From Armatimonadota bacterium (GTDB lineage Bacteria; Armatimonadota; Armatimonadia; Armatimonadales; Armatimonadaceae): a stretch of 52,517 bases of DNA. The translations under genes and the position numbers were made by a program. How positions within the stretch are numbered: the stretch's first letter is position 1; each line of letters starts with the position of its first letter. The stretch spans positions 1 through 52,517 of the forward strand of contig JAPLCP010000144.1 in assembly GCA_026392155.1 (NCBI GenBank), written 5' to 3'. Below, in pieces: positions 21,572 to 32,829 of this stretch. The notes beneath the pieces were generated by a model. The model was not told the DNA's origin and ran no database searches. It saw only the letters and a program-made list of their open reading frames with translations.

Positions 21572-22732
21572 ATGACCGAGAGCTATCGCGCCGCCTATAA
21601 TGCGGCCTTCACACCGGCACGCTACGAGGCATTCCAGCGCCTGCTGACGGAGCGCTGCGGTGTGCCGATTGCGTTTCGTTGCGCGGAGACACCGTGCTTC
21701 GAGGCGGCCACTCTTGAGGCGATGATCACCGCAGGTCGTGAGCTGATCGTGCCGCTTTTAGAAGATGCGGACTATCTTGCTCGCGCCGCGGAGGCCATCC
21801 CCGAGGCGTTTCGCGTCCCCGGCACCGACTCCGCCCCGCTCTTTGTCCAGGCAGATTTTGGTTTGGATGCGAACTTGCAGCCCAAGCTGGTCGAGATCCA
21901 GGGCTTCCCCTCGCTCTACGCCTTCCAGCCCACTCTGGCGGAAGCCTATCGGGATGCCTTTGCGCTGGATGCAACACTGGGGGCCTATCTGGAGGGCGGC
22001 ACCGCGCAGAGCAACGATGCGGCGCTGATGCAAGCCTTCTGCAATGGCCACGATCCCCACGAAGTGTTCCTGCTGGAGCTCGACCCGCAGAGCCAGAAAA
22101 CCCTCCCCGATTTTGTCCTCACCCAGAAGCGCTACGGCGTGCGGATGCTGGATGCTCGTGAGGTGGTCAAGCGCGGCACGAAGCTCTACACGCCCGAGGG
22201 GACACAGATCAAGCGGGTCTATAATCGGGTGATCGTGGACGAAGTGATCCGCAAAAATATCACGCTCCCCTTTGATTTCCGCGATGAGCTGGATTTAGAG
22301 TGGGCCGGGCACCCGAACTGGTACTTTCTGCTCAGCAAGTTCTCCCTGCCGTTTCTGACGCATCCGAGTGTCCCCAAAACCAGCTTTCTCTCGGAGGTGA
22401 CGGCGCTCCCGGAGAACCTGGAGGACTTTGTGCTCAAGCCACTCTTCTCGTTTGCGGGCCTAGGCGTGAAAGTCGGGCCGACAAAGGCCGATATTGCTGA
22501 GGTAGTTGACCCGACCCAGTGGATTCTGCAGGAGCGCGTGAACTTTATCCCGACCATCCAGACCCCCGAAGGCCCGACCAAGGTGGAGGTGCGGATCATG
22601 TTTGTTCGGGTCGGGGAGCACTACCGGGCACTCACGACGCTCCTGCGGCTCGGACGCGGCAAGATGCTGGGCGTGGATCATAACCGCGATGCCACCTGGA
22701 TCGGAGCCAGCGCCGCCTTTACGGTGCCTTAG
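21572..22732 (+). CDS. ATP-grasp-like protein of unknown function
   Basis: A 386-residue cytosolic protein. Segments APLFVQADFGLD, QPKLVEIQGFPSLYAFQPTL, EDFVLKPLFSFAGLGVKVG (ATP-grasp-type Lys/Gly-rich loop), WILQERV and TKVEVRIMFV resemble a circularly permuted ATP-grasp fold. Such enzymes ligate a carboxylate to an amine or thiol. I cannot name a substrate. The Shine-Dalgarno sequence GGAGG comes from repeat P4. It converges on the small ORF at 22737 with 4 nt between stops. Confidence 0.65.
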   Translation: MTESYRAAYNAAFTPARYEAFQRLLTERCGVPIAFRCAETPCFEAATLEAMITAGRELIVPLLEDADYLARAAEAIPEAFRVPGTDSAPLFVQADFGLDANLQPKLVEIQGFPSLYAFQPTLAEAYRDAFALDATLGAYLEGGTAQSNDAALMQAFCNGHDPHEVFLLELDPQSQKTLPDFVLTQKRYGVRMLDAREVVKRGTKLYTPEGTQIKRVYNRVIVDEVIRKNITLPFDFRDELDLEWAGHPNWYFLLSKFSLPFLTHPSVPKTSFLSEVTALPENLEDFVLKPLFSFAGLGVKVGPTKADIAEVVDPTQWILQERVNFIPTIQTPEGPTKVEVRIMFVRVGEHYRALTTLLRLGRGKMLGVDHNRDATWIGASAAFTVP

Positions 22733-22736
22733 TCTG

Positions 22737-22901
22737 TTAGCGGGTCAAGAAACTGGCCTCTCTCAAGTGGTAGACGAAGTCGTAGGCAGTGCCCGGCACC
22801 ACCCAGGCGATGAAGTGGCCGGCGGGGCCGGGCGTGGGCTTTGCGCTGCGCCGCGAGGTCGAAAAAAGCAGCGCTTGTTCGGAGCTATTTTTACAGAGCA
22901 A
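22737..22901 (-). CDS. Small ORF (54 aa) overlapping the ABC ATPase gene
   Basis: A TTG start at 22901 overlaps the ATPase stop by 11 nt. The protein ends GPAGHFIAWVVPGTAYDFVY followed by HLREASFLTR. Codons in the last 35 positions nearly all end in G or C, like the real genes here, so this frame is or was coding. The region has no other gene. It may be a short translationally coupled protein or the tail of a longer gene lost by frameshift. Function unknown. Confidence 0.45.
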   Translation of the reverse strand: MLCKNSSEQALLFSTSRRSAKPTPGPAGHFIAWVVPGTAYDFVYHLREASFLTR

Positions 22902-23517
22902 TAATCCGTTGGGCGAGAACTACTTCGCGGCTGTCGTTGGTGGCGATAAGCGTGAGCCCACCGCGTTTTTGCTGCTCCGCGACGAGCTCGGCGACCAGTG
23001 CGACGCCTTTATCATCGAGAGCGAGCCCGGCTTCGTCGAGGAGCAGCACCGGCGGCTCGAACAACACCGCTAGGGCGAGCTTCACGCGCTGGCGCAAGCC
23101 CGACGAGTACTGCCCAATGGGATCGTCTTCGCGCCCCGAGAGCCCGACGCGCTCTAGAGTCGAGGCGATATTTTCGGGTGAAGCGCCGCGCACGTCGCAG
23201 AAGAACTGAAGGTTCTCACGAGCCGTTAGCTCTGTGTAGAGTGTCAGGTCGGGCGAGACATAGCCACAGAGCCGCCGCCGCCGCGCGGGATCACTCTCAT
23301 CGGCAGTGCCCACGGTCAGTGCAATCTGGCCTTTGCTTGCCCGCAAGAGCCCCGCCACCAGCTTGACCACCGTGCTCTTGCCGCTCCCGTTGGCCCCCGT
23401 GATCGCGACCACCTCGCCGCCCTCGGCCAGAAACGAGAAGTCTCGCAAGACGCGCCGCATCCCGTAGCGCTTCTCGATTCCCGTCAGCTTAAGTTGGATA
23501 CTTTGCAGATCGTTCAC
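22891..23517 (-). CDS. ABC transporter ATP-binding protein (CcmA-like), orphan
   Basis: A 208-residue ATPase. Walker A is GANGSGKST (about 41-49); the signature is the variant QYSSGLRQRVKLALAVL; Walker B is VLLLDEAGLALDD. Size and sequence resemble CcmA and other small export ATPases. No membrane partner is adjacent, which is unusual. The GTG start shares one base with the stop of a 40-codon upstream ORF (TAGTG), so translation is probably coupled. Confidence 0.85.
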   Translation of the reverse strand: MNDLQSIQLKLTGIEKRYGMRRVLRDFSFLAEGGEVVAITGANGSGKSTVVKLVAGLLRASKGQIALTVGTADESDPARRRRLCGYVSPDLTLYTELTARENLQFFCDVRGASPENIASTLERVGLSGREDDPIGQYSSGLRQRVKLALAVLFEPPVLLLDEAGLALDDKGVALVAELVAEQQKRGGLTLIATNDSREVVLAQRIIAL

Positions 23518-23639
23518 TAGGAGACCAGCTCTAACAAGATACCTAGAATCTTCTCTAGTGCTTCAAGCGGCGTGTCACGCTCGATAGTCAGCCCGAACTG
23601 TGCTTCGACCTCCGGGAGAGTGAAACGATTATAGGCCAT
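23517..23639 (-). CDS. Small leaderless ORF (40 aa) coupled to the ABC ATPase
   Basis: It begins MAYNRFTLPEVEAQFGLTIE and ends in a Leu-rich helix (ILGILLELVS). The start resembles the first residues of PD-(D/E)XK-type proteins common in cyanobacteria, but the rest is missing, so it may be a truncated relic now serving as a coupling leader peptide. TAGAAT lies 6 nt before the ATG. Its TAG overlaps the ATPase GTG. Confidence 0.5.
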   Translation of the reverse strand: MAYNRFTLPEVEAQFGLTIERDTPLEALEKILGILLELVS

Positions 23640-23645
23640 GTTCCC

Positions 23646-23651
23646 ATTCTA
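23646..23651 (-). promoter_or_regulatory. -10 box TAGAAT of the small-ORF/ABC operon
   Basis: TAGAAT-N6-ATG for the 40-aa ORF; no Shine-Dalgarno sequence. Confidence 0.55.
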
Positions 23652-23785: not shown

Positions 23786-24409
23786 ATGGCATTGGCAACT
23801 TTCTGGAATCGGGGCGCAACACCCATGACGACCGACACGGCTCTTATTGCGCGTTGTCAAAAAGCGGATATCGCGGCCTTCAATGAGATCGTCGGGCGTT
23901 ATAAAGGCAAGATCTACAACTATCTCTATCGGATGACGGGCAATGCCGAAGACGCCGAGGATCTGACCCAGGAAGTTTTTGTGCGGATGTACTCCCATAT
24001 CCACACATTTCGGGCGGAGGCGAGTCTCTCGACCTGGCTGTTTCGGATCGCGGGCAATCTCTGCGTGGATGCGTTCCGTCGCAAGAAAAAAGAGCGCGGC
24101 GTGGTCAGCTCGCTGGATGCGCCACTGTACAACGATGAGGAAGACGGCGGAGCGACGCGTGATGTGCCCGATATGAAGGCTGCGCCGGAGGTACTTTTCT
24201 CTCGTAAGGAACTAGGGGGGCAGATTGAAGAGGCACTAGCCAAGCTCCCCACCAAGCTACGCTCCGCTGTGGTTCTCCATGATATCGAGGGGCTCTCCTA
24301 CGAAGAGATCGCGGAGGTAGAGAAAATACCCCTGGGAACCGTGAAATCGCGCATCTATAATGCCCGTGTGGCACTGCGAAGCTCTCTTCGTCCGTACTTA
24401 GAATCATGA
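23786..24409 (+). CDS. ECF (sigma-70 family) RNA polymerase sigma factor, RpoE-like
   Basis: A 207-residue sigma factor. Region 2 (about 25-95) includes NYLYRMTGNAEDAEDLTQEVF and STWLFRIAGNLCVDAFRRKK; region 4 (about 145-205) includes VVLHDIEGLSYEEIAEVEKI and PLGTVKSRIYNARVALR. There is no extra C-terminal domain. I start at 23786 because AAGGGGACGAG precedes it; an ATG 13 codons later is possible. It is followed 12 nt later by its anti-sigma factor and then an RseB-like protein, so it probably controls an envelope stress response. Confidence 0.93.
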   Translation: MALATFWNRGATPMTTDTALIARCQKADIAAFNEIVGRYKGKIYNYLYRMTGNAEDAEDLTQEVFVRMYSHIHTFRAEASLSTWLFRIAGNLCVDAFRRKKKERGVVSSLDAPLYNDEEDGGATRDVPDMKAAPEVLFSRKELGGQIEEALAKLPTKLRSAVVLHDIEGLSYEEIAEVEKIPLGTVKSRIYNARVALRSSLRPYLES

Positions 24410-31078: not shown

Positions 31079-31885
31079 ATGTCTGTCTTTACCGAAAATC
31101 CCGTTCTCTACAAAGAGATCACCACTCGCTTTCAGCTACGTCGCCAATCTAAGGCCAACCGTATTGTCATCTACTCTATCGTAGGGCTGATCATTCCCCT
31201 GTTCTACTGGTTCAGCATGCTGGCCATACTCCGTGACTCCAATGCGGCGCGTGACTCCTACGGGATCTTTCTCTGCGCTCTGGAAGTGAGCCTGGTGGTG
31301 TTCCTGACCCCAGCCATGCTGGCCTCGGCGATCACGCTGGAGCGGGAGAAGCAGACCTGGAACGCGCTTCTGCTCTCGCGGCTCACCCATAGCGAGATTG
31401 TGGCGGGCAAGTTTATCGGTGGGCTGATTCCCACCCTGATCGCGCTGGCGGTCTTTTTCCCGCTCAATATTATCGCGGCACTAGGGGCGGGCATAGGACT
31501 GGGGCAGTTTCTTCTCTCGCATGTCTTGCTGATGGCAACGATGCTCTTTTACGGGGCGGTAGGGCTCTTCTGCTCCTGGGTCTGCCGCCGCACCCAAGTG
31601 GCAACGGCGACGGCCGCGGGAACCGTGGCATTCTTCACCCTAGGCTCCCCGCTGGCGCTCTCACTCTGGCAGTCCGTGTCAGGCTACAGTGGCAGCTCCC
31701 GAGCCAGCGACTTTCTCCCCCTCTGGAGCAACCCATACTACGCCATGGCCGAGCTGACCATGGAGCGCAGCGGTAACCCCGAAATCGCGATCTTACTGAC
31801 GATAGGCTCGCTGATCGGCACCGTGCTGCTCTTGGTGCTTGTCACTCGCAGACTGGCCCAAGGCCCGAAAGAAATGAGCGCGTAG
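31079..31885 (+). CDS. ABC-2 type transporter permease
   Basis: A 268-residue inner-membrane protein with six hydrophobic segments (about 25-50, 63-85, 115-140, 145-170, 175-200 and 235-258). The motif TLEREKQTWNALLLSRLTHS between segments 2 and 3 is typical of ABC-2 permeases. AGGAGAAGG lies 9-10 nt before the ATG. It is the first gene of a three-gene export operon with an ATPase and a second permease. The general layout recalls gliding-motility or NosDFY-type exporters; the cargo is unknown. Confidence 0.88.
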   Translation: MSVFTENPVLYKEITTRFQLRRQSKANRIVIYSIVGLIIPLFYWFSMLAILRDSNAARDSYGIFLCALEVSLVVFLTPAMLASAITLEREKQTWNALLLSRLTHSEIVAGKFIGGLIPTLIALAVFFPLNIIAALGAGIGLGQFLLSHVLLMATMLFYGAVGLFCSWVCRRTQVATATAAGTVAFFTLGSPLALSLWQSVSGYSGSSRASDFLPLWSNPYYAMAELTMERSGNPEIAILLTIGSLIGTVLLLVLVTRRLAQGPKEMSA

Positions 31886-31893
31886 GCATCACC

Positions 31894-32829
31894 ATGGCAC
31901 TTGTTGAGATCAGTCATCTTCGTAAAGAGTACGGCGACTTAGTGGCGGTCAAGAACCTCTCGCTAACCTTGAACGAGGGAGAGATCTTTGGTTTTATTGG
32001 CCCCAATGGCGCGGGTAAGACCACGACCATCAAGATCCTGGCGACACTTTTAGATCCCTCAGCGGGGAGCGCGAAGGTGGATGGCATTGATGTCTCCCTT
32101 GACCCTGAGGCGGTTCGCTCCAAGATCGGCTACATGCCCGATGCCTTTGGGGTCTACGATGACTTTAAAGTATGGGAGTACTTAGACTTCTTCGCTGCTT
32201 CCTATCGAGTTCCCAAGGGCGACCGGCCCGGCCTCATTGACCTCGTTCTAGATCTGACCAACCTCTCCGTCAAGAAAGATGCCTATGTTGAGTCGCTCTC
32301 ACGCGGCATGAAGCAGCGGCTCTGCCTGGCACGCACACTGGTACATAACCCGAAAGTATTGCTTTTAGACGAGCCTGCCTCGGGGCTAGATCCGCGTGCC
32401 CGCATCGAGATCAAGGAGCTGCTCAAAGAACTGCGTAACATGGGCAAGACGATCATTGTTAGCTCGCATATTCTCCCCGAGCTGGCGGACTTTTGCACGT
32501 CGGTGGGCATTATCGAGCGTGGCGAGATGATCGTCGCCGGCCCGATTGAGAAGATCATGAAAGAGGTGCTCGGCGGGCGCGTGCTGGAGCTACGCGTCCC
32601 TGAGGCGGATCGAACACAAGCGATGGCGATCTTGCGCTCCGTAGAGCACGTCCGTGATGTCGTGCTGGTGAGCGAGACAATCCGCGTGGACTACAATGGC
32701 ACGCTCGACGATCAATCTAATGTTCTGCTGGCACTGATCCAAAACGGCGTCCGTGTGCAGACCTTCGCCGAGCAAGATACCGACTTGGAAGATATTTTCC
32801 TACGCGTAACAAAGGGCCTGGTGGCATAA
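31894..32829 (+). CDS. ABC transporter ATP-binding protein (ABC-2 exporter)
   Basis: A 311-residue ATPase. Walker A is GPNGAGKTT (about 37-45), signature LSRGMKQRL, Walker B VLLLDEPASGLD, and the switch His in IVSSHILPEL. The C-terminal extension (about 225-311) is usual for DrrA/CcmA-type exporters. It starts 8 nt after the first permease and ends 1 nt before the second. Confidence 0.95.
   Translation: MALVEISHLRKEYGDLVAVKNLSLTLNEGEIFGFIGPNGAGKTTTIKILATLLDPSAGSAKVDGIDVSLDPEAVRSKIGYMPDAFGVYDDFKVWEYLDFFAASYRVPKGDRPGLIDLVLDLTNLSVKKDAYVESLSRGMKQRLCLARTLVHNPKVLLLDEPASGLDPRARIEIKELLKELRNMGKTIIVSSHILPELADFCTSVGIIERGEMIVAGPIEKIMKEVLGGRVLELRVPEADRTQAMAILRSVEHVRDVVLVSETIRVDYNGTLDDQSNVLLALIQNGVRVQTFAEQDTDLEDIFLRVTKGLVA

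Follow-up and report, generated by a model that had tools for sequence, protein, structure and literature searches.

The window analysed here is a stretch of 52,517 nucleotides of Armatimonadota DNA. An ABC-type ATPase gene lies on the minus strand at 22891-23517 and encodes 208 residues from a GTG that is the earliest ATG, GTG or TTG codon downstream of the preceding in-frame stop. It is enclosed by two small ORFs on the same strand. The upstream one, of 40 codons (23517-23639), runs from an ATG at 23639 to a TAG ending at 23517, and the G of this TAG is also the G of the ATPase GTG, the overlap forming the pentanucleotide TAGTG (23515-23519). Downstream, a 54-codon ORF extends from a TTG at 22901 to a stop at 22737; its first 11 nt overlap the end of the ATPase gene, stop included, and it has no start of its own outside that gene. 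On one side the neighbour is a divergent ECF sigma factor gene (23786-24409, plus strand), assigned by family matches and synteny. On the other is a conserved gene for a protein of 386 residues (21572-22732, plus strand), 76% identical in the same-genus genome G001, for which there was no NCBIfam match and only TTL, at E 0.15, in Pfam.

The initial annotation of this locus was accurate in all coordinates of the ORFs and of both overlaps. The strong G/C third positions it remarked in the 54-codon ORF are real: by codon position the G+C fractions are 0.51/0.53/0.78, compared with 0.70/0.44/0.75 for the ATPase and 0.61/0.32/0.61 for the 40-codon ORF. Its description of the 40-codon ORF as leaderless agrees with a sequence motif, the -10-like TAGAAT at 23646-23651 (minus strand), which ends 6 nt before the ATG. 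The statement that no permease is nearby is true of the immediate neighbourhood: the closest ABC-2 type permease to match a family (31079-31885) is 7.6 kb away and adjoins an ATPase of its own (31894-32829).

Judged by its sequence, the solitary ATPase is CcmA, which powers the heme exporter of c-type cytochrome assembly. The best NCBIfam match is TIGR01189 (ccmA), with 137.4 bits against a cut-off of 131.6; another CcmA model, PRK13538, gives 125.7 bits, below its cut-off of 195. Walker A, signature and Walker B motifs are all present. Homologues were sought at E 1e-30 in 61 genomes, including that of the window, and 48 were positive. A search of the same 61 genomes for CcmB gave a match at E 0.001 in 51, above cut-off in 48, and a CcmB match is present in every one of the 48 genomes with an ATPase homologue. 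In 41 of these 48 Armatimonadota genomes the homologue precedes CcmB on the same strand at a distance of 16-325 nt. The other seven are the genome of the window, G001, G036, G060, G039, where the CcmB hit is weak, and G003 and G010, where a gene sits at a contig end and adjacency cannot be judged. Of the 91 relatives in a scan of contigs with the ATPase as query, the best 80 consist almost entirely of distant ABC ATPases; one is titled Armatimonadota (L130).

The switch-loop histidine is replaced by asparagine at residue 194 in all 30 aligned CcmA-like sequences of Armatimonadota, our own included; the alignment took 30 of the 48 homologues, those with loci (L011-L039). The asparagine is therefore a lineage trait. 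It leaves ATPase activity not assured, but it does not exclude membership of the CcmA family because relatives adjacent to ccmB carry it too. Nine other ATPases of the same genome were checked and have histidine at the switch position or one place off. Walker B reads LDEA instead of LDEP in two of the 30 aligned sequences which, judged by sequence, come from the two same-genus genomes with a split ccmA.

The description of the gene as an orphan is apt as to its place and wrong as to its function, since the partners of CcmA are encoded elsewhere in the genome. Contig C35 carries ccmB, ccmC, ccmE and ccmF in a row (Pfam matches CcmB, Cytochrom_C_asm, CcmE and CcmF_C), while ccmA is on contig C195. 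Inspection of the ORFs of at least 130 residues listed in the first 16 kb of C35 revealed no ATPase. The arrangement is similar in G001, where ccmB, ccmC, ccmE and ccmF are together and ccmB is 1.09 Mb from ccmA on one contig. Outgroup loci are informative about the older order. Four of nine (L060, L012, L013 and L015), drawn from three genera within the same taxonomic family, have an ECF sigma gene, with 71-76% identity to that of the window, in divergent orientation to ccmA, and in these ccmB is the next gene after ccmA. The sigma gene was not seen beside ccmA in the other five (L056, L057, L058, L059 and L020, the last a locus of only 3.1 kb). Given the sigma-ccmA-ccmB order in these four loci, the most economical interpretation is that the site next to the sigma gene is probably the old one, at which ccmA stayed when ccmBCEF left. 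A separation of ccmA from ccmB is likewise seen in G036 and G060, which belong to one other genus, and perhaps in G039, so the split between ccmA and ccmB may have occurred more than once.

G001 was the only same-genus genome to appear and it matches the window on both sides: identity is 81.4% in ccmA, 78.3% in the left gene (21572-22732) and 81.5% from 23707 rightwards. The gaps flanking ccmA are very different. Between the left gene and ccmA there are 158 nt in the window and 2,919 nt in G001, where three genes, all on the minus strand, fill the space: an anti-sigma-like gene, an ECF sigma gene and a gene with a cyclase domain. "Anti-sigma-like" is our own label for a gene whose sole Pfam match is CarboxypepD_reg, below cut-off. 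Between ccmA and the divergent sigma gene the distances are 268 nt and 1,867 nt, the latter including an ankyrin-repeat gene. Neither small ORF is present beside ccmA in G001, and ccmA itself has no extension at either end there. This comparison of sequences suggests that both gaps flanking ccmA turned into sites where genes were gained and lost.

The 40-codon ORF is best explained as a gene that has lost its central part by an in-frame deletion; its two ends are observed in the sequence and the deletion event is deduced from them. Direct searches gave little. The peptide has no match at E 0.01 outside its own genome among 60 relatives, and none at E 1 in plasmids or phages. Across 291 genomes of the phylum there were matches at E 0.5 in 28, the two best non-self ones (E 0.005 and 0.02) being unrelated proteins. 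At E 0.07 or weaker, however, a family of proteins of about 200 residues could be recognised by the common start MAY..FT. One of these, L067, used as query, located the family in seven of 61 genomes, with 32 matches. When the ORF is aligned to the family the first 19 residues (23583-23639) correspond to the N-terminus and the last 17 (23517-23570, with the stop) to the C-terminus, and the stop falls at the same place as in family copies without a tail. About 155 codons of the parent family are missing between the two parts.

Position scores were derived from 17 copies, 20 of the 32 matches having been extracted and L109, L112 and L128 left out as partial. The N-terminal part scores 39.2 bits, within the range of the copies (34.8-47.3), and is the best of 2972 starts in the window, the next having 16.5. 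The C-terminal part scores 18.8 bits, less than the lowest of the 17 copies (range 21.6-42.2), and is the best of 1435 stops in the window, the next having 1.5. In 102 other loci, a set that leaves out 27 loci and the window and in which some loci overlap, scores as high were reached by one of 22,543 starts and one of 10,583 stops; these occur in L118 and L119, which are themselves family copies. The columns used for scoring were taken from an alignment in which the 40-codon ORF is itself a row, a bias in its favour though hardly one of this size. Because both ends match one protein family the similarity is clearly above chance, and the sequence comparisons strongly support the remnant reading. 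A family profile run against the same genome detected three longer copies elsewhere and the 40-codon ORF itself (E 4.6e-4, N-terminal part only).

What was the parent gene? The PADLOC model PD_DExK is matched by eight of nine aligned family rows and covers residues 54-197 of the first, which names the family as PD-(D/E)XK nuclease-like. Pfam gave nothing better than E 0.09 for the family, and a search of solved structures gave one hit at chance level (E 0.35). The ORF itself has no PADLOC match and the nuclease core is absent, so it is a remnant rather than a member of the family. No intact nuclease-like gene was observed at this site, and a search for a relic of it in the gap between ccmA and the sigma gene of the outgroup locus L060 found only noise. 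The ORF might also be the joint of two tandem family copies; as both fragments match one family, an internal deletion, in a single gene or across a tandem pair, is a simpler account than a fusion. Five of the 32 family matches contain a stop (L109, L112, L118, L125 and L129, the last two on one contig and perhaps a single copy), and judging from such sequences decay of this family seems to be frequent in the clade.

The 54-codon ORF is a less certain case. It is probably what is left of the 3' end of an anti-sigma-like gene, which is present in longer form at the same place in G001, and this reading is moderately supported by the sequence data. Searches of the 291 genomes with the peptide gave matches at E 0.5 in 134, most of which are therefore noise. 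The best non-self match (E 7.7e-4 for one genome, 46% identity over 35 residues; next best 0.005) falls in the 2.9-kb gap of G001, on the same strand, in the anti-sigma-like gene that adjoins the left flank. The aligned stretch is 22753-22856. In a shorter alignment, at the DNA level, 63 of 92 nt are identical to G001, with E 1e-7 in a two-sequence search. The controls are mixed. For the protein, 33.9 bits compares with at most 27.7 in 1000 shuffles, yet one of 506 ORFs in the window, the 54-codon ORF being counted, reached 34.7, and that one is unrelated and lies out of frame inside the left gene. For the DNA, a score of 57 compares with at most 49 in 500 codon shuffles; among 688 other segments of the window one scored 62, the ECF sigma gene against the truly related sigma gene of G001, and the next scored 51. 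The argument from position is stronger than that from similarity, and it is by its place in the sister genome that the ORF is probably above chance. The flanking genes are only 158 nt apart here, compared with 2,919 nt in G001, and the full-length anti-sigma-like frame is not present. Beyond the match LERGQFLDPL and LRVDEGKFLDLG seem, by eye, alike in another frame, as in a decaying gene.

Start signals in the window point to a common pattern. A TAnnnT box occurs 4-9 nt before 13 of 42 hand-picked starts, the 40-codon ORF among them, and before 3.6% of 20,000 random positions, which suggests that leaderless starts may be common in this clade. The box precedes seven of 11 nuclease-like copies from the same taxonomic family and none of nine others. 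In G001 a -10-like box lies 7 nt before the GTG of ccmA. The window and G001 have TGAAGCGGTAGAAT in common, just before the start of the 40-codon ORF in one and of ccmA in the other, and in the genome of the window the remnant lies between TGAAGCGGTAGAAT with the -10-like box and ccmA. A second -10-like sequence, TATAAT at 23628-23633, falls in codons 3-4 of the 40-codon ORF and could be the putative start of a separate ccmA transcript.

Several explanations should be considered for the two small ORFs. Are they partners of the ATPase, leaders, products of error, or nothing at all? The initial annotation had proposed coupling leaders, unrecognised partners or remnants of larger genes. The match of both ends of one ORF to a single family, and the place of the other in G001, support the last. 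Functional partner peptides, for example a CcmD-like subunit, are suggested by the close packing and the overlaps, and the E. coli complex has CcmD as a small subunit according to the sections of PMC10457321 used here. This explanation is rejected, and we consider it extremely improbable, as the ORFs match no Pfam family at E 1, CcmD included, and no NCBIfam or PADLOC model; both are missing beside ccmA in G001, and the 40-codon ORF is explained by the two ends of one family. The initial annotation advised a search for the small ORFs beside homologous ATPases. Among the matches listed, in a comparison limited to genomes with a known place for the ATPase, only the longer G001 gene lies within 10 kb of one. 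The same annotation raised sequencing error that, once corrected, would restore longer frames, and a genome in 228 contigs leaves room for errors of sequencing or assembly. Nevertheless we reject error as the cause and give it hardly any credence, since the G001 ccmA is not extended at either end and a loss of about 155 codons is beyond any single base error.

Two further alternatives deserve more attention. The 54-codon ORF might be a chance frame and the downstream gap simply non-coding. The similarity is modest, one of 506 ORFs scores higher, and there is no start outside ccmA. Against this, the top non-self hit from all 291 genomes lies within the one syntenic gap and on the right strand, and the DNA score exceeds those of all 500 codon shuffles; a chance frame is improbable. 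The 40-codon ORF, for its part, might be kept by selection as a leader that carries the promoter, with restart at the overlapping GTG setting the amount of CcmA. The TAGTG overlap, the -10-like box so near the ATG and the in-frame deletion are all compatible with this, and overlapping gene pairs are coupled in other prokaryotes according to the part of PMC6728339 consulted. However, the ORF is absent from G001, where the ccmA GTG has its own -10-like box, and one-third of deletions are in frame by chance. Selection for a leader is thus an unlikely explanation, though not a negligible one.

Taken as a whole, a split CcmA with gene remnants in the flanking gaps is, with high probability, the best explanation of the locus. 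Our confidence would be greater but for the fact that only four of nine outgroup loci keep the old order and that the controls on the 54-codon ORF are mixed. The ancestral ccmABCEF operon was probably divergent from the ECF sigma gene with ccmA first. In this genus ccmB, ccmC, ccmE and ccmF would have come to lie together at another site while ccmA stayed, and CcmA would act in trans, its ATP hydrolysis serving heme loading with the CcmB, CcmC and CcmE produced elsewhere. Upstream of ccmA, a nuclease-like gene would have lost about 155 middle codons in frame; what survived, namely its promoter and start, both termini and the stop, forms the 40-codon ORF. Downstream, the sigma/anti-sigma region of the sister genome has probably gone save for a 3' scrap, the 54-codon ORF. 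Transcription of ccmA may now begin at the promoter of the remnant, and translation may in part be by reinitiation at TAGTG; coupling of this kind is plausible. A bolder proposal is that the deletion scar has been reused, the 40-codon remnant contributing a leaderless promoter and TAGTG reinitiation balancing CcmA against the CcmBCE made elsewhere. We regard this as doubtful.

The locus illustrates how the splitting of a ccm operon can combine with gene decay to yield an apparent orphan ATPase with mystery peptides, and it cautions against annotating both small ORFs as genes. Should the scar couple translation of ccmA, it would offer a natural example in which a deletion-born ORF has turned regulatory, and the split would allow one to ask how CcmA dosage is balanced off the transcript of CcmB.

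The split ccmA is an instance of known things, System I and deletion-born ORFs, and not a new kind. For System I the comparison is with E. coli CcmABCD as treated in the sections of PMC10457321 available to us. There CcmA is likewise an ABC ATPase of about 205 residues with Walker A, signature and Walker B motifs, and ATP hydrolysis at CcmA drives the complex. In both genomes the ATPase is accompanied by ccmB, ccmC, ccmE and ccmF. The switch motif is TTHQP in E. coli and ATND here. System I is mostly encoded in one operon and, unlike this norm, CcmA here is not beside ccmB; the name Armatimonadetes was not found among the ccmA/ccmB literature matches listed. The leaderless genes described in the parts of PMC3160421 and PMC12340547 consulted, from other phyla and other bacteria, have TAnnnT a few nucleotides before the start codon, as here; the term "armatimonad" does not occur in the portion of PMC3160421 obtained. 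Deletion-born ORFs are also known, the available text of PMC12803068 describing deletions that join fragments into a new in-frame ORF. Those are fusions, whereas here both fragments match one family, PADLOC PDLC01472, of which the 40-codon ORF has the first 19 and last 17 residues together with the stop, the core between them having gone.
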